A stretch of DNA of 64,000 nucleotides, taken from contig NZ_CP166097.1 in assembly GCF_041228105.1 (NCBI RefSeq), positions 2,728,001-2,792,000 on the forward strand, in the 5' to 3' direction. The notes under the pieces were generated by a model. The model was not told the origin of the DNA. It worked only from the letters and a program-made list of their open reading frames with translations, and did not search any database. Both the position numbers and the translations under genes were made by a program. Positions 40,934 through 59,067 of this stretch are shown one piece after another. How positions within the stretch are numbered: the first letter of the stretch is position 1; each line of letters opens with the position of its first letter. The stretch comes from Pectobacterium aroidearum. Lineage in GTDB: Bacteria; Pseudomonadota; Gammaproteobacteria; Enterobacterales; Enterobacteriaceae.

Positions 40934-40949
40934 TGTGATACACGTCACA
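40934..40949. promoter_or_regulatory. CRP site between msrB and gapA
   Basis: TGTGA-TACACG-TCACA is a perfect match to the CRP consensus half-sites with the right spacing. It lies about 118 bp upstream of the msrB start and 211-226 bp upstream of the gapA ATG. CRP activates one of the gapA promoters in E. coli; the match suggests the same here. Confidence 0.75.
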
Positions 40950-50661: not shown

Positions 50662-51915
50662 CTAACGAACGTATCTTTCCACGGACAAATCATCGGCCTC
50701 AATCTCCGGTGATTTGTCCGACAGAATATCCGCCAGTAACTTTCCTGACCCGCAGGCCATCGTCCAACCTAACGTGCCATGTCCGGTATTCAGGTACAGA
50801 TTTTTCAGCGGAGAACGCCCCACCAGCGGCGTGCCGTCTGGCGTCATCGGACGCAGCCCCGTCCAGAATGTTGCTTGTTCAATCGGGCCGCAATGGGGAT
50901 ACAGATCGCGCACGACCATCTCCAGCGTTTCACGTCGTTTAGGATTCAGATCGGTGTTGAAGCCCACGACCTCTGCCATTCCTCCAACGCGGATGCGACG
51001 ATCAAAACGCGTGATGGCCACTTTGTAGGTTTCATCCAGCACGGTAGAAACCGGCGCGGAGGCATCATCCGCCAGCGGGATCGTCAGTGAATAGCCTTTC
51101 AGCGGATAAACCGGAATATCGAACCACTGCCGCAGTAGTCCCGTGGAATAGGAACCGCAGGCCATCACATAGGCGTCCGCCACGATCATCTCATCATCAC
51201 ACTGAACGCCCGTTACGTTTTGGCCTTCTACCCGTAACTGACGAACGTGACGCCCCAGTTTGAAGGTGACGCCCGCATCGGCAGCCATCGCCGCCAGTTG
51301 ACGGGTGAACAGCTGACAGTCCCCAGTCTCATCATGTGGTAAGCGCAGCCCGCCGGTCAGTTTCTCCGCCACATTTGCCAGCGCAGGTTCAACAGAGGCC
51401 AATTCATGACACGTCAGCAGTTGGTATGGCACACCAGCCTCTTCCAGCACGGCGATATCCCGAGTTGCATTGTCATATTGCTGTTCGGTACGGAACAGTT
51501 GCAGCGTTCCGCCCTGCCGACCTTCGTACTGAATACCGGTATCTCGCCGCAGCTGTTGCAAACAATCACGGCTGTACTCCGCCAGACGCACCATCCTCGC
51601 TTTATTGGTCTTATAGTGGCGCGCATCGCAATTGAACAACATTTGCCACATCCAGCACAACTGCGCGGCCGTGAAGTCGGGCCGGATAGCCAGAGGCGCA
51701 TGGCGCTGAAACATCCATTTTATCGCTTTCAGCGGTATTCCCGGCGCCGCCCAGGGCGCAGCATAGCCGGGAGAAATCTGCCCGGCATTCCCGGCGCTGG
51801 TTTCTAACGCGGGCTCCGGTTGTCTATCGATAACGGTGACATCATGCCCTTCCTGCGCAAGATACCAGGCGGTACTCACGCCAACTACGCCACTTCCCAG
51901 AATCACAACCCGCAT
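50662..51915 (-). CDS. dadA: D-amino acid dehydrogenase small subunit
   Basis: Membrane-associated FAD enzyme that oxidises D-amino acids, above all D-alanine, to keto acids. The 417-residue protein has the FAD-binding GxGxxG start [20 protein letters not shown] and ends with the C-terminal FAD motif [20 protein letters not shown] (near 375-394). The usual partner dadX (alanine racemase) does not follow; an MFS gene converges on it. A perfect CRP site lies about 215 bp upstream. Confidence 0.97.
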
Positions 51916-52122
51916 GCTACCGCTCTCCCTTTCTCTCCGCTAAAGACCGTCTAATCTGCTAGAAAACTGTTTATTTAATGGAATAAAACACTAGGTAACA
52001 GGTGAAACTGGAGACTACTCTAGCATTTGGGAAGGAATTGTCACCCGTCTCAACGATAACATTTATCTATTGTTCCTTCTCACCCCAATCAATCTTCTCC
52101 AGGACATTCGTAATGAAATAAC

Positions 52123-52138
52123 TGTGAAATCATTCACA
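52123..52138. promoter_or_regulatory. CRP site between dadA and the PTS operon
   Basis: TGTGA-AATCAT-TCACA is an exact CRP consensus match. It lies 207 bp upstream of dadA (minus) and 262 bp upstream of the PTS operon (plus). A weaker match, CATGA-TAACCA-TCACA, is at 52245-52260. Catabolite control would make sense for both units. Confidence 0.75.
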
Positions 52139-52358
52139 AAATAGGCATTCGTTTTTTAGGAAGAAACGGTAGAAAGGATAAAAAAGACAGAAATGTTAAA
52201 ACTCAAATGAATGAATGCGTTAGCCCAGTCGCACATTTTAAAATCATGATAACCATCACAGAAACCTATCCCTATTCATCCCTGTCAAGCTGCGAAACCC
52301 CGTAATTAAATACAAATTTGAGATATTCATCAAAAAAATGCTTTATCAGTTTAATAAC

Positions 52359-52374
52359 ATTGTGTTCACACGAT
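52359..52374 (+). promoter_or_regulatory. Palindrome just before the PTS operon
   Basis: ATTGTGTTCACACGAT is symmetric at 12 of 16 positions (ATyGTGTnnACACrAT), 26 bp before the first start codon. A weak promoter, TTGAGA at 52318 and TTTATC at 52342, would place it at the transcription start, where a repressor could sit. The regulator is not encoded nearby. Confidence 0.4.
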
Positions 52375-52400
52375 AATTATTCATATTTCAGAGGTCAACG

Positions 52401-53381
52401 ATGAAAATTGGATTAGTCATTAGTGGCGGCGATGTTAGCGGAATAAATAACTTCATCTTTCAGGTGAACAGAATGACAGATGCTGACATCGTTATTTTTG
52501 ATGGTGGAATTAATGGCCTTATCGACAATTGCTGCAAAGCGATTACTCGCCGCGATCTGGTTGATTATTCCATCTCATCAATGCCGTTGATGACGTCAGG
52601 GAGAAGAGCAGGAAAATGCAGAAAAGCTGATTATGAGAAAATCGTTAAAAATATACAAAAACAAAAACTCGATGCGCTCATCATGGCTGGGGGTGATGGA
52701 TCATTCCAATTTCTCAAGAAGCTCAGCCACTATGGTGTCCATTGCTACGGCGTAGGAATGACGATTGACAATGATATTTCAGGAAACAGCTACACGATTG
52801 GTTTTTCTACCGCCTGCGAACAGGTAATGAGTGAGGTAGAAAAGTTACGCAATACGGGCCGGGGATTACAAGGCCGAGTATTCATGATTGAACTGCTGGG
52901 CGGTTATTGTGGGGAATTAACATTACAGGCCGCATTAAAAAGCAATGCTGACATTGCGCTTATTCCAGAGTCACCCTGGGACATGGATACGTTATCACAA
53001 TGTATTCGGGAAAAGATTGCAGAACAGAACAGCGTGATTATTTTATGCTCTGAAGGCTATACCCAGGAATATACGCCCGGCTTTCAGGGCGCGATCGACA
53101 CCATTATCAAGAAGCTAGAGCACAAAATTGGAATCCGTATCCGAAAGACTATTTTGGGATATGGTTTACGAAATGGCGCGCCCACCGGGGAAGAAATTAT
53201 TCAGGGCACCCTTTTAGCAGAGGAAGTCGTTCGGTGTATCAACACTGGGCTGACAAATAAAATCATTATTATTAATAACAACAACAAAGCTATTCCCATC
53301 GACTTAGAGGAGTCCGAACGCCGCTTAGTCGATGTAGAAAGTCATCTTTATAAGCTCGCGAAAGCTCATCATCTTATATGA
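52401..53381 (+). CDS. PfkA-family (ATP-type) sugar-phosphate kinase
   Basis: A 326-residue kinase of the 6-phosphofructokinase family; first gene of the PTS operon. The ATP-site GGDGS (residues 97-101) and catalytic TIDND (121-125) are intact, and the E. coli effector-side Arg72 region is changed (SGRRAGK). Of the residues that hold fructose-6-phosphate in E. coli PfkA, the counterparts of Arg162, Glu222, Arg243 and Arg252 remain (Arg159, Glu218, Arg248, Arg257). Arg171 is replaced by Gly168, His249 by Tyr254 and Met169 by Leu. A sugar-phosphate other than fructose-6-phosphate is therefore a fair guess. AGAGG precedes the ATG. Confidence 0.88.
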   Translation: MKIGLVISGGDVSGINNFIFQVNRMTDADIVIFDGGINGLIDNCCKAITRRDLVDYSISSMPLMTSGRRAGKCRKADYEKIVKNIQKQKLDALIMAGGDGSFQFLKKLSHYGVHCYGVGMTIDNDISGNSYTIGFSTACEQVMSEVEKLRNTGRGLQGRVFMIELLGGYCGELTLQAALKSNADIALIPESPWDMDTLSQCIREKIAEQNSVIILCSEGYTQEYTPGFQGAIDTIIKKLEHKIGIRIRKTILGYGLRNGAPTGEEIIQGTLLAEEVVRCINTGLTNKIIIINNNNKAIPIDLEESERRLVDVESHLYKLAKAHHLI

Positions 53382-53391
53382 GGCCATTATT

Positions 53392-53685
53392 ATGTTGAAA
53401 GTTCTTTGCGTATGCGGCTGTGGATTAGGCTCCAGTTTCGCTATCGAAATGAGTGCAAAATCCGTACTAAAAAAACTGGGCATTGATGCAGAAATAAATC
53501 ACACCACGATTTCAGAAGCCTCTGCCTTCCGCTATGACGTCATTTTAACGCAGAAAATATTTGCGGATATTCTGACTAGTGATGCCAATGAGGATGAGAA
53601 AAAAAGAATCATCATTCTTAATAAATTGACCGACAAAGACGAAATAGAAGAAAAAATCTTAGCGTATATTCAGGCTCATAAATAA
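53392..53685 (+). CDS. PTS EIIB component, ascorbate/lactose-type fold
   Basis: A 97-residue cytoplasmic phospho-carrier that passes phosphate from EIIA to the incoming sugar. The phosphocysteine is Cys8 in VCVCGCGLGSSFAIEM, the P-loop-like start of the SgaB/UlaB class. It begins 10 bp after the kinase gene and ends 13 bp before EIIC, so the three are translated as a block. Confidence 0.9.
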   Translation: MLKVLCVCGCGLGSSFAIEMSAKSVLKKLGIDAEINHTTISEASAFRYDVILTQKIFADILTSDANEDEKKRIIILNKLTDKDEIEEKILAYIQAHK

Positions 53686-53698
53686 CATGAGGTGAAAA

Positions 53699-55036
53699 AT
53701 GAACACCGTTATCAATTTCATTGTGAAAGATTTATTAGGCCAGGCATCCATATTAATCGCACTGATCGCCATGATTGGTTTGATTCTACAGAAAAAATCA
53801 GTCGGAAAAATTGCAGAAGGAACGTTCAAGACCCTACTGGGTTTCCTCATCATGATGGCGGGGATTAACATCATCGTCGACACCCTGACGTATTTGAATA
53901 GCATCTTTACTCAGGGGTTTGGCATGACAGGCTACATCACCGATGTTGCCGCTATCGCCGGACTGGCCAACCGCGAACTCGGGTCAGAAGTTGCCTTGAC
54001 GCTCATGGTGATCTTTGCGGTCAACATCCTTATTGCGCGCATTACTCCCTTTAAATATATCTTCCTGACTGGGCAAGCCCTGCTGTGGATGGCAACAATC
54101 GGTACCGTGATCGGCTACAAATCGGGTTTAACCGGCGCAACACTGATCCTCACCGGAGGCATATTTGGCGGCATTATGGCCGTGCTGATGCCCGCGCTAG
54201 CGCAGCCGATTGTACGTAAAATCACGAATTCTGATGATGTAGCGCTCGGGCATTTTTGTACCATCGGGTATCTGGTGCAAGCTGCCGTCGCCCGTTTAGT
54301 CGGTAAAAACTCCAAATCTACCGAGGACTTAACGCTACCCGATAACTTCAAATTCTTGCAGGATACCTACCTGTCAATGGCCGTGGTTATGGTACCGATG
54401 TACCTCATCCCTGCCGTGGCGGCTGGACCGGCCTATATCGCGCAATACGCCAACGGCGTTAACTATCTGATGTATTCCTTCATGCAGTCCATGCAGTTTG
54501 TCGCAGGGGTGTTTGTTCTCTACAGCGGTGTACGTCTGCTGCTTAATGAATTAGTTCCCGCATTCCGCGGCATCGCGATGCGTCTGGTACCCAACGCCAA
54601 ACCCGCGCTGGATTGCCCGGTGCTCTTCCCTTATGCGCCCAACGCCGTGATTGTCGGCTTTCTTGCTACCACCGTCGGCTCTGTTCTGGGAATGCTGATC
54701 TTTCCAATGTTTGGGTTGGCGATGATTCTGCCGGGGTTATTGACCAACTTCTTTGCTGGCGGGACAGCGGGTATTTTCGGCAACGCACTGGGAGGGCGTC
54801 GTGGCGCCGTCATCGGAGGCGTCGTTCATGGTCTTTTCATTACCCTATTGCCCGCCATTTTGGTGCCATTACTGGAAGTCTTCGGGTTTACCGGCGTGAC
54901 CTTTAGTGATTCTGATGTCATCAGTACAGGTCTGATATTAGGACACGCATTCCAACAAGATTGGTTATTTGTCGCTGCGTTTGTCGCATTCGTTGCATTC
55001 ATTGCCTTTATTGCGAATCGTAAATTATCGCAATAG
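53699..55036 (+). CDS. PTS EIIC component, UlaA/SgaT family
   Basis: Membrane channel of the PTS that carries the sugar across the inner membrane. The 445-residue protein has about eleven hydrophobic segments and UlaA-class landmarks: FKTLLGFLIMMAGINIIVDTL (near residues 42-62), ITPFKYIFLTGQALLWMA (near 115) and LTNFFAGGTAGIFGNALGGRRGA (near 351-373). The family is best known for L-ascorbate, but members with other substrates are common. No ulaD/E/F-type ascorbate genes are nearby, so ascorbate is unlikely here. Confidence 0.9.
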   Translation: MNTVINFIVKDLLGQASILIALIAMIGLILQKKSVGKIAEGTFKTLLGFLIMMAGINIIVDTLTYLNSIFTQGFGMTGYITDVAAIAGLANRELGSEVALTLMVIFAVNILIARITPFKYIFLTGQALLWMATIGTVIGYKSGLTGATLILTGGIFGGIMAVLMPALAQPIVRKITNSDDVALGHFCTIGYLVQAAVARLVGKNSKSTEDLTLPDNFKFLQDTYLSMAVVMVPMYLIPAVAAGPAYIAQYANGVNYLMYSFMQSMQFVAGVFVLYSGVRLLLNELVPAFRGIAMRLVPNAKPALDCPVLFPYAPNAVIVGFLATTVGSVLGMLIFPMFGLAMILPGLLTNFFAGGTAGIFGNALGGRRGAVIGGVVHGLFITLLPAILVPLLEVFGFTGVTFSDSDVISTGLILGHAFQQDWLFVAAFVAFVAFIAFIANRKLSQ

Positions 55037-55096
55037 CGCATGGCCTTTCGATGGTCTGTCGTCATTAACGTTATGTAAACGGGTTAAGGGGTCACG

Positions 55097-55375
55097 ATGT
55101 TTTCTTTTCTCAGGCGTTTTTTATCTTCCGGATTCTCTGCCGATCGTCGTAGTCATGTGAATGACAACATTGCCAAAGAAATGGAACAAGAATTAGCAGA
55201 GCTGGAATCTCGCTTAATACAAGATCCGAACCATAGTGAAACGCAGAAAATGTTAATGATTAAATACAACCAGGCCATCCAGTTATTTTCTGGGCATCCT
55301 GATTATCGACATCGCGTTGATGATATTTTTATCAAAATTGATGAACTCAGAAACACCATTCGTAAAAGTATATGA
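55097..55375 (+). CDS. 92-residue protein of unknown function in the PTS operon
   Basis: I recognise no family. The protein starts with an amphipathic stretch (MFSFLRRFLSSGFSADRR), followed by helices with heptad-like spacing (EMEQELAELESRLI, near residues 29-42) and a basic C-terminus (ELRNTIRKSI). Neither signal peptide nor metal motif is seen. AAGGGG lies 6 nt before the ATG. It lies between EIIC and EIIA, 60 bp after one and 6 bp before the other, so it is part of the operon. A regulatory or assembly role with the PTS is only a guess. Confidence 0.75.
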   Translation: MFSFLRRFLSSGFSADRRSHVNDNIAKEMEQELAELESRLIQDPNHSETQKMLMIKYNQAIQLFSGHPDYRHRVDDIFIKIDELRNTIRKSI

Positions 55376-55381
55376 GGCGTT

Positions 55382-55819
55382 ATGAGCATAAAAAACTTCC
55401 TGTTACAACATAACTGTATTCAACTTGGCGTGGTATGTAAAACGTGGGAAGACGCGATATATTGTGCCGCACAACCATTAATTAACGCAAAATTTATCAC
55501 GGATGAGTATCCCATCGCGGTGATAAAAAACACGAAGAAATATGGTCCTTATTATGTTTTTGATGAAGGCATCGCGATTCCACATGCTCGCCCTGAATGC
55601 GGGGTGCGGGAGAATTGTTTCAGTTTACTGACGTTACAAACACCGATCTCTATTCAGGGAAGTGAACCCGTGGATATTTTAATTATGTTCGGTGGCGTTA
55701 GCAGTGATGCACATATTACGGAAGGCATTGCCTCTATCGTCAATCTACTGGAAAAAGACGACATGATCTCTCGTATTCGAACTGCCATAACATTCGATGA
55801 CATTGTCGGGGTATTATGA
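55382..55819 (+). CDS. PTS EIIA component, mannitol/fructose-type fold
   Basis: A 145-residue phospho-carrier that takes phosphate from HPr. The phosphohistidine is His68 in the family motif DEGIAIPHARPE (residues 61-72), and the C-terminal helix region (NLLEKDDMISRI) is typical. The order EIIB-EIIC-EIIA with separate proteins matches the ascorbate-type layout. Its stop overlaps the next ATG by four bases (ATGA). Confidence 0.92.
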   Translation: MSIKNFLLQHNCIQLGVVCKTWEDAIYCAAQPLINAKFITDEYPIAVIKNTKKYGPYYVFDEGIAIPHARPECGVRENCFSLLTLQTPISIQGSEPVDILIMFGGVSSDAHITEGIASIVNLLEKDDMISRIRTAITFDDIVGVL

Positions 55820-56349
55820 AAAAACTTATTTTAGTAAATGGTATACCAGCATCGGGGAAAAGTACGGTAGCTCGAGTCATTGCAGATGAATTACATTTCC
55901 CTCTGTTGAGTCTCGATGAAATAAAAGAGCCTTTCATGGTGCAACTTTGCGACACCATTGATAGAACGTTAAACAGAAAGCTAGGGTATGCCGCGTATCA
56001 AGCCATGTTTAATATCGTTCAGCAGGCACCGAAAAACAGCACCATTATTCTTGATGCCTGGTTTGGTTTTCGCGAAAAATCACGATTACAAGAATATATC
56101 ACTGCGTGTGACATCCACCACACGCTTGAAATATGGAATGCAATTTCCCCCGAACGAGTAGCAGAACGTTATCAGGCCAGAGTGCATAAAAGAATAAAAG
56201 GCCATCCCGGTGATGAATACCTTCCGGAATTAATGGCACTCGCACATCAGGCTCACCCGATGAGTATTGGTAAGTGCTACACGGTTGATCAGGATAAGGA
56301 CATTAATTATCAGGAACTCATTCAATGGATTAAAAACAACCTGGATTAA
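55816..56349 (+). CDS. Small P-loop kinase of unknown substrate
   Basis: A 177-residue nucleoside-triphosphate-binding protein, probably a phosphotransferase of the AAA_33 / gluconate-kinase-like group. Walker A is GIPASGKST (residues 9-17). A likely second acidic motif is LSLDEIKEPF (near 36), and TIILDAWFG (near 75-83) is Walker-B-like. A lid-like basic stretch (ERYQARVHKRIKGHP) lies near 116-130. The start overlaps the EIIA stop, so translation is coupled. It may phosphorylate the sugar or a pathway intermediate. A zeta-toxin-like role is less likely because no antitoxin gene is present. Confidence 0.8.
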   Translation: MKKLILVNGIPASGKSTVARVIADELHFPLLSLDEIKEPFMVQLCDTIDRTLNRKLGYAAYQAMFNIVQQAPKNSTIILDAWFGFREKSRLQEYITACDIHHTLEIWNAISPERVAERYQARVHKRIKGHPGDEYLPELMALAHQAHPMSIGKCYTVDQDKDINYQELIQWIKNNLD

Positions 56350-56382
56350 TCGATTATTGATATTAATTTTATGAGGATAATT

Positions 56383-57285
56383 ATGATGAACACCATGACT
56401 ACGGCTGAATACCGGGGATATCAATTAATTTGTGATGCAACGGGCTCAATGATGGTTATTGCCTGCGATCAACGTGGCGGAATGCGAACATTATTAGCAT
56501 CGACCCCTGAAGCACAGGCTGCCATTACTAATGAAACATTAGGAAAAACAAAATATGACATTACACGTTATCTGGCGGCAGAGGCCGGATGCGTGCTGGT
56601 TGATCCTATTTGCGCCATACCCGGTCTGATCGATGAAAACATCTTGCCTCGTGATACCGGTCTGCTCATCGGGCTTGATGCGTCAGGCTGGGAAACGACG
56701 CCAGAAGGGTATCGGATCTCCACGCTGGTTGAGGGCGTCACGGCGCGTAAAGTACGTGAATGGGGAGCGACAGGGGGGAAAATTATGATCTACCTGCGTC
56801 CGGATAGACCGGATGCCAATACCCGTAACCTTGAAACACTCCGTACCGTGATACAGGATTTTGCGCAGGAAGATTTACTGCTCGTTGTCGAATTTCTGAC
56901 CTACTCTCTGGAAAATGAATCTCGCGACACCTACACTCGTCTCCTGCCCGAACTCATCCCAGCAGGCTGTCAGGCCTGTATCGAGGCAGGCGCAAAGGTT
57001 TTAAAAATTCCTTATCCTGGATCTGATGAAGCCTGCGCGCACGTTACCGCGCTCTGCGGTAACATCCCCTGGGCAGTCCTCTCTGCGGGTGTCGATCACG
57101 CAACGTTTCTCCCGCAGGTAGAAAGCGCGTTGAAAAATGGCGCATCTGGCGTCATTGCCGGGCGTTCACTCTGGAAAGACTGTATATCCCTCGAACGTGC
57201 AATTTCAAAAGAGAAACTGTCTACCGTCGCCGTCTCGCGACTCAGAGATATTCAGGCACTCCTAAAACGCTATCAACGCTCCTAA
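56383..57285 (+). CDS. LacD/YihT-family class I ketose-bisphosphate aldolase
   Basis: A 300-residue TIM-barrel aldolase related to tagatose-1,6-bisphosphate aldolase (LacD) and sulfofructose-phosphate aldolase (YihT). The N-terminal ACDQRGGMRTLL is the family start, and Lys208 in AGAKVLKIPYPGSDE is the expected Schiff-base lysine. VLSAGVDHATF (near 232-242) and the phosphate loop GVIAGRSLWKD close the barrel. The start is set at the ATG with GAGG 6 nt upstream; a second ATG follows directly. Last gene of the operon. With the PfkA-like kinase it would yield dihydroxyacetone phosphate and glyceraldehyde-3-phosphate if the substrate is a ketohexose bisphosphate. Confidence 0.87.
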   Translation: MMNTMTTAEYRGYQLICDATGSMMVIACDQRGGMRTLLASTPEAQAAITNETLGKTKYDITRYLAAEAGCVLVDPICAIPGLIDENILPRDTGLLIGLDASGWETTPEGYRISTLVEGVTARKVREWGATGGKIMIYLRPDRPDANTRNLETLRTVIQDFAQEDLLLVVEFLTYSLENESRDTYTRLLPELIPAGCQACIEAGAKVLKIPYPGSDEACAHVTALCGNIPWAVLSAGVDHATFLPQVESALKNGASGVIAGRSLWKDCISLERAISKEKLSTVAVSRLRDIQALLKRYQRS

Positions 57286-57301
57286 TCCGGCCTGCATTTT
57301 T

Positions 57302-57323
57302 TGCGCTCTCTCAGGAGAGCGCA
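57302..57323 (+). terminator. Hairpin closing the PTS operon
   Basis: TGCGCTCTC pairs with GAGAGCGCA around TCAG, 16 nt after the aldolase stop, followed by CTTCCCTCTCC. The downstream tract is pyrimidine-rich with few T, so termination may be partial. Confidence 0.55.
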
Positions 57324-57525
57324 CTTCCCTCTCCTCCCGTACATACGCATGAATTTTCTACCCTATCGACAACCTTTTACCATCACATACGTTCGATTCC
57401 TCAATTGCCGCGCCTCCAAAGCTCAGCTATAACTAAATGAACAACGATGATTTTTTTGGCTGGGCCAACCGGAAGGCAGTAAACGGAATCTCACGTACAG
57501 GTTTGCTATATTAGGGGGCGCGCTG

Positions 57526-59067
57526 ATGGCTATATCCACGGATAATCAGGTAAAAAAAACACTTCGCCTGAGTGATGGACCGGACTGGACGTTTGAGTTA
57601 TTGCAGGTTTACCTTGATGAAATTGATCGGGTGGCCAAGTTGTATCGTCTGTCGACCTATCCTCATCAGATCGAAGTCATCACCTCAGAACAAATGATGG
57701 ACGCCTATTCCAGTATAGGAATGCCGATCAACTATGCCCACTGGTCGTTCGGGAAGAAATTTATCGAAACCGAACAACGCTACAAACACGGGCAGCAGGG
57801 GCTGGCGTATGAGATCGTCATCAACTCCGATCCCTGTATCGCGTATTTGATGGAAGAGAACACACTGCCGATGCAGGCGCTGGTCATGGCGCATGCCTGC
57901 TACGGGCACAACTCGTTCTTCAAAGGCAACTACCTGTTCCGCAGTTGGACCGACGCCAGCTCCATCGTCGATTATCTGCTGTTTGCCCGGCAATATATCG
58001 CGCAATGCGAAGAGCGTTATGGCGTGGACGAAGTGGAACGCCTGTTAGATTCCTGCCATGCACTCATGAATTACGGCGTTGACCGCTACAAGCGCCCACA
58101 AAAAATTTCGCTTGAAGAGGAAAAGTCCCGCCAGAAAAGCCGTGAAGCCTACCTGCAAAGCCAGGTTAACGATCTCTGGAAGACATTACCACGGCGAGAA
58201 CAAGGTGCCGCACCGGAGCAAGCGAGACGCTTTCCGCAAGAGCCGCAGGAAAACCTGCTCTATTTTATGGAGAAGAACGCACCGCTGCTGGAGCCTTGGC
58301 AGCGTGAGGTTCTGCGTATCGTGCGGAAAGTCAGTCAGTATTTTTATCCGCAGAAGCAGACGCAGGTAATGAATGAGGGCTGGGCTACGTTCTGGCACTA
58401 CACCATTCTGAACCATCTCTATGATGAAGGCCGGGTCACTGAGCGCTTCATGATGGAATTCCTGCACAGCCATACCAACGTGATCTATCAACCGCCGTAT
58501 AACAGCCCGTATTACAGCGGAATCAACCCCTATGCGCTGGGCTTCGCGATGTTTCAGGATATCAAGCGCATTTGTCAGTCGCCGACGGACGAGGACCGTT
58601 ACTGGTTCCCCGATATTGCCGGTAAAGACTGGCTCGATACGCTGCATTTTGCGATGCAGAACTTCAAGGACGAGAGTTTCATCAGCCAGTTCCTGTCGCC
58701 TAAGCTGATGCGTGATTTCCGGCTATTTACGGTGCTGGACGACGATCGAAACAACTATCTGGAAATCGCGGCGATTCACGACGAAGAAGGCTACCGCCTG
58801 ATCCGGCAGGAGCTTTCCGCACAGTACAACCTGAGCCATCTGGAGCCGAATATTCAGGTCTGGAATGTGGATTTGCGCGGCAATCGGGCGCTAACGCTGC
58901 GCTATGTTCCGCATAATCGCGCCCCGCTGGATAAAAGCAGCCAGGAAGTGTTGAAGCACGTCCACCGCCTGTGGGGCTTTGACGTCTATCTGGAACAGGC
59001 TAACGCAGATGGAAGCGTTGAGCTGCTTGAACGCTGCCCGCCGCGTAACGGAACAGCATCCACATAG
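57526..59067 (+). CDS. ycgB: SpoVR-family protein YcgB
   Basis: A 513-residue cytoplasmic protein of the SpoVR family, of unknown biochemical activity; in E. coli ycgB, yeaG and yeaH are linked by stress regulation and phylogenetic co-occurrence. The long N-terminal domain is rich in Tyr, His and Trp, with AHACYGHNSFFKGNYLF near residues 126-142 and EGWATFWHYTILNHLYDEG near 285-303. The C-terminal part (from about 430) is the small SpoVR domain. The start MAISTDNQVKKTLRLSDGPDW is reasonable. It is convergent with fadR. Confidence 0.95.
   Translation: MAISTDNQVKKTLRLSDGPDWTFELLQVYLDEIDRVAKLYRLSTYPHQIEVITSEQMMDAYSSIGMPINYAHWSFGKKFIETEQRYKHGQQGLAYEIVINSDPCIAYLMEENTLPMQALVMAHACYGHNSFFKGNYLFRSWTDASSIVDYLLFARQYIAQCEERYGVDEVERLLDSCHALMNYGVDRYKRPQKISLEEEKSRQKSREAYLQSQVNDLWKTLPRREQGAAPEQARRFPQEPQENLLYFMEKNAPLLEPWQREVLRIVRKVSQYFYPQKQTQVMNEGWATFWHYTILNHLYDEGRVTERFMMEFLHSHTNVIYQPPYNSPYYSGINPYALGFAMFQDIKRICQSPTDEDRYWFPDIAGKDWLDTLHFAMQNFKDESFISQFLSPKLMRDFRLFTVLDDDRNNYLEIAAIHDEEGYRLIRQELSAQYNLSHLEPNIQVWNVDLRGNRALTLRYVPHNRAPLDKSSQEVLKHVHRLWGFDVYLEQANADGSVELLERCPPRNGTAST

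Follow-up and report, generated by a model that had tools for sequence, protein, structure and literature searches.

A 64,000-nt stretch of Pectobacterium aroidearum DNA (contig NZ_CP166097.1, positions 2,728,001 to 2,792,000; hereafter, the window) harbors seven co-directional, tightly packed open reading frames (ORFs; 52401–57285, plus strand, all with ATG starts) that probably form a catabolic cassette for one ketose, combining uptake by a phosphotransferase system (PTS) with phosphorylation at C1 and aldol cleavage. The first gene encodes a PfkA-family kinase (52401–53381; PF00365, 207 bits), predicted from residue alignment to act as a ketose-terminal-phosphate 1-kinase. It is followed by the PTS components EIIB (IIB; 53392–53685; PF02302, 46 bits; conserved cysteines) and EIIC (IIC; 53699–55036; PF03611, 405 bits against a cut-off of 24), the latter of the UlaA/EIIC-GAT family and with a sugar pocket that appears altered in alignment to relatives of solved structure. 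Downstream lie orf92 (55097–55375), a small helical accessory protein identified by alignment, modeling and profile comparison as putative kin of an Enterococcus TPR-like protein; EIIA (IIA; 55382–55819; PF00359, 96 bits; conserved histidine); an AAA_33-like P-loop kinase (55816–56349; PF13671, 40 bits) whose model and fold search indicate a nucleotide-kinase-like fold; and a class I aldolase of the DeoC/LacD family (56371–57285; PF01791, 58 bits) with an aligned Schiff-base lysine, K212. All Pfam scores exceed their cut-offs. This gene set, its location between dadA and ycgB and the family of each product had been put forward in a first-pass annotation and were borne out by ORF, Pfam and NCBIfam analysis, as were the general fit to PTS uptake, a second phosphorylation and aldol cleavage, and the lack of an isomerase among the seven genes. 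Its description of "short gaps or 4-bp overlaps" needed amendment: intergenic distances are mostly short (10, 13, 60, 6, –4 and 21 bp in operon order), but there is a single 4-bp overlap and one gap reaches 60 bp.

A genome collection scanned for IIC yielded 99 relatives; the 80 best were retained and underlie all genome-locus counts given here. IIB, IIC, orf92, IIA and the P-loop kinase are each encoded in 80 of 80 loci and the PfkA-like kinase in 79, a recurrence that excludes a chance grouping of the seven genes and confirms the co-conservation of the core, at several insertion sites. Indeed, dadA is the upstream neighbor in all seven Pectobacterium loci, each of which carries all seven genes, while other genes take this place in Klebsiella, Pantoea and Serratia. 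The cassette is patchy and no Pectobacterium speciality. Among 394 genomes drawn from the order, 14 (the window's own included) carry the P-loop gene (E 1e-10), three of them from other families and with the entire form bearing a class II aldolase (see below); of the three Pectobacterium genomes in this draw, one is devoid of it. Neither megablast with the operon nor blastn with IIC matched Escherichia coli in 20,395 records, and no complete E. coli genome was matched.

The PfkA-like kinase gene is missing from one locus (L070), and in four others (L072, L074, L084, L085) the kinase or IIC gene is in two pieces. Taken together with L004, these Pantoea, Enterobacter and Klebsiella records, in which the kinase or IIC gene is absent, incomplete or broken up, suggest gene decay or errors in the sequence. 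That the cassette is decaying or silent, and without present function in P. aroidearum, would be in line with such relatives, with the absence of the P-loop gene from one of the three drawn genomes of the genus and with two degenerate promoter sites in the window's genome (sites 2 and 3, below); yet all seven frames are open, catalytic residues are kept and the seven Pectobacterium loci are complete, so that we regard this explanation as barely plausible.

The strongest functional clue comes from the aldolase. Of 83 core-bearing loci (the 80 genome loci plus L003, L004 and L005), 20 encode a LacD-like class I enzyme, 63 a class II ketose-bisphosphate aldolase and none both; for the 80 genome loci alone, clustering and tblastn gave the identical split of 19 and 61 (PF01116, the class II family, was tested on two class II members). 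The class I gene ends the operon, and the class II gene lies directly 3′ of IIC, except in Enterococcus, where it follows the small protein. In a kinase plus IIC tree of 80 rows, built with a quick method and supported by SH-aLRT (Shimodaira–Hasegawa-like approximate likelihood ratio test) values only, a branch of support 100 sets all 21 class I rows apart, so a single change accounts for the swap. Class II is probably the older form, since it also occurs in three loci from other families and in Enterococcus. The LacD-type aldolase of the first-pass annotation is thus present in the window but stands outside the shared core, with a class II enzyme in 61 of 80 relatives. Class I and class II aldolases are unrelated, and the chemistry they are established to share is the cleavage of ketose bisphosphates; their alternation in one slot therefore points to a ketose-bisphosphate intermediate, for which it is our best evidence. 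Besides, the cassette offers a natural example of one aldolase class substituting for another within the same operon.

Membership of the window's enzyme in the class I (DeoC/LacD) family is supported by its PF01791 score and by K212, which, like D33, E174 and R265, is kept in 20 of 20 sequences. It scores below the cut-offs of the LacD model TIGR01232 (47 of 432 bits) and of NF009498 (149 of 184). The E. coli sulfofructosephosphate aldolase YihT belongs to the same class I family (the cassette aldolase aligns to structure 1to3 with 57 bits), but acts on a sulfosugar, in a pathway not known to include a PTS. As a separate observation, 11 of the 20 loci with a class I aldolase (L003, L014, L015, L017, L019, L020, L021, L022, L024, L029 and L071) have a gene for a HAD phosphatase directly 3′ of it, whereas none of the seven Pectobacterium loci does.

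The kinase was aligned (79 rows, including the window's copy) using as a reference the other phosphofructokinase (PFK) gene of the same genome, a second copy located elsewhere and read as the housekeeping pfkA; residue numbers given here are the classical number plus one. The GGDG motif, T125, D127, D129, R162, E222, R243 and R252 are kept in 79 of 79 rows. In PFKs, the arginines R162, R243 and R252 grip the 6-phosphate. In contrast to this intact set of catalytic and phosphate-binding residues, the sugar pocket appears changed: R171 is replaced by G in all 79 rows, H249 by Y (73 rows) or F (six rows) and G124 by M, and nine residues are inserted after E222. With 170 of 371 bits, the protein also stays below the cut-off of the PfkA equivalog model TIGR02482. 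We therefore read it as a putative sugar-phosphate 1-kinase with a substrate other than fructose 6-phosphate.

The P-loop protein might compete for this role, either by making the bisphosphate or by phosphorylating the aldehyde released by the aldolase, with the PfkA-like protein as an auxiliary. Such a division of labor draws on the presence of the P-loop gene in 80 of 80 genome loci and on an Enterococcus relative that shares a D-x-x-K-E-x-F motif and for which the 15 kb read contained no PfkA-like gene, because of which the P-loop kinase could be the real second kinase. However, the PfkA-like protein has the full catalytic set and occurs in 79 of 80 loci, a housekeeping PfkA could serve in Enterococcus, and the profile match between the two P-loop proteins (hhalign P = 6.9e-6 over 93 columns) was obtained without a shuffled control and spans, besides that common motif, the generic Walker A motif. 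On balance, we consider this arrangement unlikely and retain the PfkA-like protein as the presumed C1 kinase. For the predicted model of the P-loop protein (predicted local distance difference test, pLDDT, 93), the top fold match is 2rhm, a putative kinase (E 5.6e-11, template modeling score 0.78), followed by adenylate, nucleoside and shikimate kinases and one sugar kinase, consistent with a general small-molecule kinase fold that gives no hint of the substrate.

IIC scores 822 bits with the general sugar IIC model NF009551 (cut-off 657), more than with any ascorbate model it passes, and its solved relatives are UlaA proteins (structures 4rp8 and 5zov), the IIC of the E. coli L-ascorbate PTS, UlaABC. 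The cassette shares with UlaABC the IIC fold family and the separate IIB and IIA proteins. Of the eleven ascorbate-contacting UlaA residues given in PMC6048161, IIC keeps H194, D314 and F362 and differs at eight (T86V, Y87A, H135Q, I136A, Q139W, Q195F, I358L and M410F), although the underlying alignment is distant and gapped near T86/Y87; by this comparison, its pocket differs from the published ascorbate pocket. Twelve positions (the eleven contacts and the hinge glycine G58) are each invariant over 82 loci, one gap excepted, and the Enterococcus L005 protein has the same residue at nine of them. As these residues are invariant or shared, a single sugar is probably the substrate in both aldolase clades and in Enterococcus. 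The phosphotransfer residues are likewise kept: C8 and C10 of IIB in 81 of 82 loci (one gap) and H68 of IIA in 82 of 82.

That the cassette might simply be an L-ascorbate or ascorbate-like system deserves mention given that, of three ascorbate models for IIC, the protein exceeds the cut-off of one (NF006919; 480 vs. 380 bits) and falls short of the others (NF009549, 385 of 890 bits; NF007094, 268 of 687), and that IIB and IIA match ascorbate models. Yet the scores of IIB (24 of 138 bits) and IIA (101 of 187) are far below what these models require, eight contacts differ as listed above, and none of the seven proteins matched enzymes of the ascorbate route in Pfam or NCBIfam, the partners being a kinase and a bisphosphate aldolase instead. 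The enzymes of that route are named UlaD to UlaG. An ascorbate substrate thus seems very improbable. As a side note, the window's genome encodes a second UlaA-type IIC together with IIB and IIA (L001; G000:C1:825632-826822, minus strand), 45% identical to that of the cassette and with a pocket different again (N, E, H, H and F at UlaA positions 86, 87, 135, 136 and 139). In a different family of the order, a further UlaA-type PTS (L105:17919-19900; IIC 46% identical to that of the cassette) accompanies the cassette, ~3 kb upstream of it.

The route favored here would thus start with IIA, IIB and IIC importing a ketose and phosphorylating its terminal carbon, by analogy to the formation of ascorbate 6-phosphate by UlaA. 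The PfkA-like kinase, judging from its kept catalytic and phosphate-binding residues, would add the C1 phosphate. Given that two unrelated aldolase classes fill one slot, the aldolase is expected to cleave the resulting bisphosphate, giving dihydroxyacetone phosphate plus an aldose phosphate, which would enter central metabolism. The substrate is most likely a rare ketohexose. Among these, D-tagatose leads weakly, as a tentative assignment: it fits most simply, as a kinase and an aldolase of this sort are what its 6-phosphate requires, and E. coli PfkA has been described to make tagatose-1,6-bisphosphate from tagatose-6-phosphate (PMC10101011).

The tagatose 6-phosphate pathway (LacC, LacD) and the GatY/KbaY routes likewise involve a second phosphorylation and ketose-bisphosphate cleavage by a LacD-like class I or a class II aldolase. 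They differ from the cassette, whose kinase is of the PfkA type and which has no LacAB isomerase gene; moreover, its class I aldolase stays below the LacD cut-off and its class II aldolase stays below those for GatY/KbaY. LacC is a PfkB-type kinase. In enteric bacteria, the tag genes of Klebsiella oxytoca reportedly combine a tagatose PTS with a kinase and an aldolase, the PTS being said to be of the fructose type and the kinase of another family than that of the cassette. One K. oxytoca genome (L036) also carries the cassette.

Several observations weigh against the proposed route or its sugar. Other Klebsiella strains of cassette-bearing species are reported to have their own tagatose transporter and kinase (PMC10101011), and a psicose system is reported for such species as well; tagatose and psicose are weakened as candidates by these reports. 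For the class II aldolase, fructose-bisphosphate models outscore tagatose-bisphosphate models, all below equivalog cut-offs. The three steps leave the P-loop kinase without a role, and a P-loop relative is found in the Enterococcus cluster, where reading 15 kb revealed nothing PfkA-like. The seven genes encode no sugar sensor, IIC exceeds the NF006919 ascorbate cut-off, and the pocket comparison rests on the gapped, distant alignment noted above.

Substrates with seven carbons were also considered. A ketoheptose such as D-mannoheptulose would be turned into the 7-phosphate by the PTS and into the 1,7-bisphosphate by the kinase, to be cleaved by the aldolase into dihydroxyacetone phosphate and erythrose 4-phosphate. 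PfkA and aldolases accept seven-carbon analogues; a kinase pocket remodeled by an insert with unchanged phosphate contacts would suit such a substrate, and several class I carriers belong to genera generally known as plant-associated, e.g. Pectobacterium and Lonsdalea. However, hexuloses account for the same facts and no heptulose PTS appeared among the top listings of a literature search, making a ketoheptose quite unlikely as compared with the rare ketohexose preferred here. As for described loci, a Klebsiella pneumoniae psicose locus is a different operon, and the substrate of a Proteus mirabilis ula locus is given as unconfirmed.

No description of the operon was found in the top listings of open-licence literature, a coverage outside which most subscription papers fall. 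Within these listings, the statement of the first-pass annotation that the gene combination fits no familiar catabolic route holds. The literature cited comprises PMC10101011, PMC6020474, PMC13289894 and PMC6048161. For a patchy orphan PTS of some Klebsiella, Serratia, Pantoea and soft-rot bacteria, the sugar is now directly testable and, once identified, would reveal the diet of carriers on plants and in guts.

orf92 is part of the cassette, as is the P-loop kinase, which provides two uncharacterised families with a defined context. orf92 had no Pfam or NCBIfam match, and a 77-sequence alignment places conservation mostly in the C-terminal half. Its model (mean pLDDT 81) shows three helices forming a bundle and, at the N terminus, a short helix modeled with low confidence, and a fold search with this model returned no PDB match at E 0.001. 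Profile comparison with an alignment of 36 TPR-like proteins, whose gene adjoins the same IIC in Enterococcus, gave P = 7.5e-6 at a score of 36.3 (hhalign probability 84%), compared to scores of at most 15.7 for twelve column-shuffled controls, indicating by sequence profile that the two proteins are related. The corresponding plasmid clusters of Enterococcus gilvus and E. raffinosus (L005, L109) resemble the cassette in their IIC (62% identical), TPR-like protein, class II aldolase and P-loop protein; they differ in that the 15 kb read lacks a PfkA-like gene and that a PRD-type regulator is fused to IIA.

Upstream of the kinase gene, a palindrome scan identified three plus-strand sites resembling those of the cyclic AMP (cAMP) receptor protein (CRP). 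Site 1 (52123–52138) is a perfect TGTGA-N6-TCACA, with equally perfect equivalents at –278 to –295 in 12 of 12 class I loci displayed; the same region of class II loci contains weaker CRP-like sites or none. Sites 2 (52245–52260) and 3 (52319–52334) have two mismatches each and lie 74 bp apart. Across 84 upstream regions, which are related and hence not independent, 77 contain two CRP-like palindromes at exactly this distance (at most four mismatches in total) and seven have no such pair, whereas the next-best spacing was found in 14 regions, and 20 base-shuffled sets gave at most one region at any spacing. The 74-bp spacing also holds in 23 regions less than 60% identical to one another, where base agreement was 0.93 and 0.85 in the half-sites vs. 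0.50 between sites, a difference partly built in as these regions were picked for having sites. A GTCAA box between the sites, outside the selection criterion, is present in all 20 of these 23 regions that stem from the collection scan or L003 and not in L105–L107. Following the geometry rule for class II CRP-dependent promoters, site 3 would sit at the class II position relative to an A-rich, –10-like block in the alignment, read here as a putative –10 element (TAACAT, 52355–52360, plus strand) 36 bp downstream of where site 3 begins. Conserved sites of CRP consensus at fixed spacing, as expected of the cAMP-CRP regulon, predict CRP binding, and cAMP-CRP may drive transcription through this conserved two- or three-site promoter. 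Elsewhere in the window, the sole other perfect CRP-type palindrome is located at 40934–40949.

Clustering revealed no regulator gene common to all loci, with family tests covering part of the flanking genes. A DeoR-type gene lies directly upstream on the same strand, ~0.4–0.6 kb before the kinase, in seven of 80 loci, all Serratia (L023, L025, L028, L030, L040, L051 and L055), and is a candidate regulator of the cassette there; as the best match in the window's genome is 33% identical, it has no close counterpart in P. aroidearum. LysR genes are present in the flanking sequence retrieved for 24 of 85 loci and are read as different neighbors because their positions and orientations vary and their median pairwise identity is 32%. 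Ten flanking proteins tested at L105–L108 included one regulator, of the RpiR type and 3 kb downstream (L107). More speculatively, and rather doubtfully as a whole, the cassette may represent a new PTS-linked pathway for some ketose, perhaps a heptulose, that none of the described routes covers, with orf92 and the P-loop kinase as a new accessory module common to Gram-negative and Gram-positive bacteria that would control or complete the transporter's work, and with the fixed 74-bp CRP-site promoter replacing a dedicated regulator in most carriers.

With regard to the insertion site, the flanking proteins exceed NCBIfam cut-offs for D-amino acid dehydrogenase (dadA) and for SpoVR family protein PRK11767, which we take to be ycgB. 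Other members of the same GTDB family supplied six regions for comparison. In four of these, dadA and ycgB are 0.3–0.5 kb apart, and in a fifth 1.9 kb, each time without the operon genes; in the sixth (L118, a Pectobacterium-genus contig end), dadA is off the stretch. There is thus good support for the earlier view of the operon as an accessory insertion into a conserved dadA–ycgB block. An Rfam scan of 51900–57530 gave nothing up to E = 1, hence no known leader RNA, and promoter and terminator scans showed no excess over shuffled sequence. A perfect 8-bp hairpin lies 3′ of the aldolase stop (57303–57322); with no T run behind, it is unlike a standard terminator. The window's genome is 5.28 Mb in size, and its IIC is 100% identical to the copies of Pectobacterium aroidearum and Pectobacterium sp. 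PL152.

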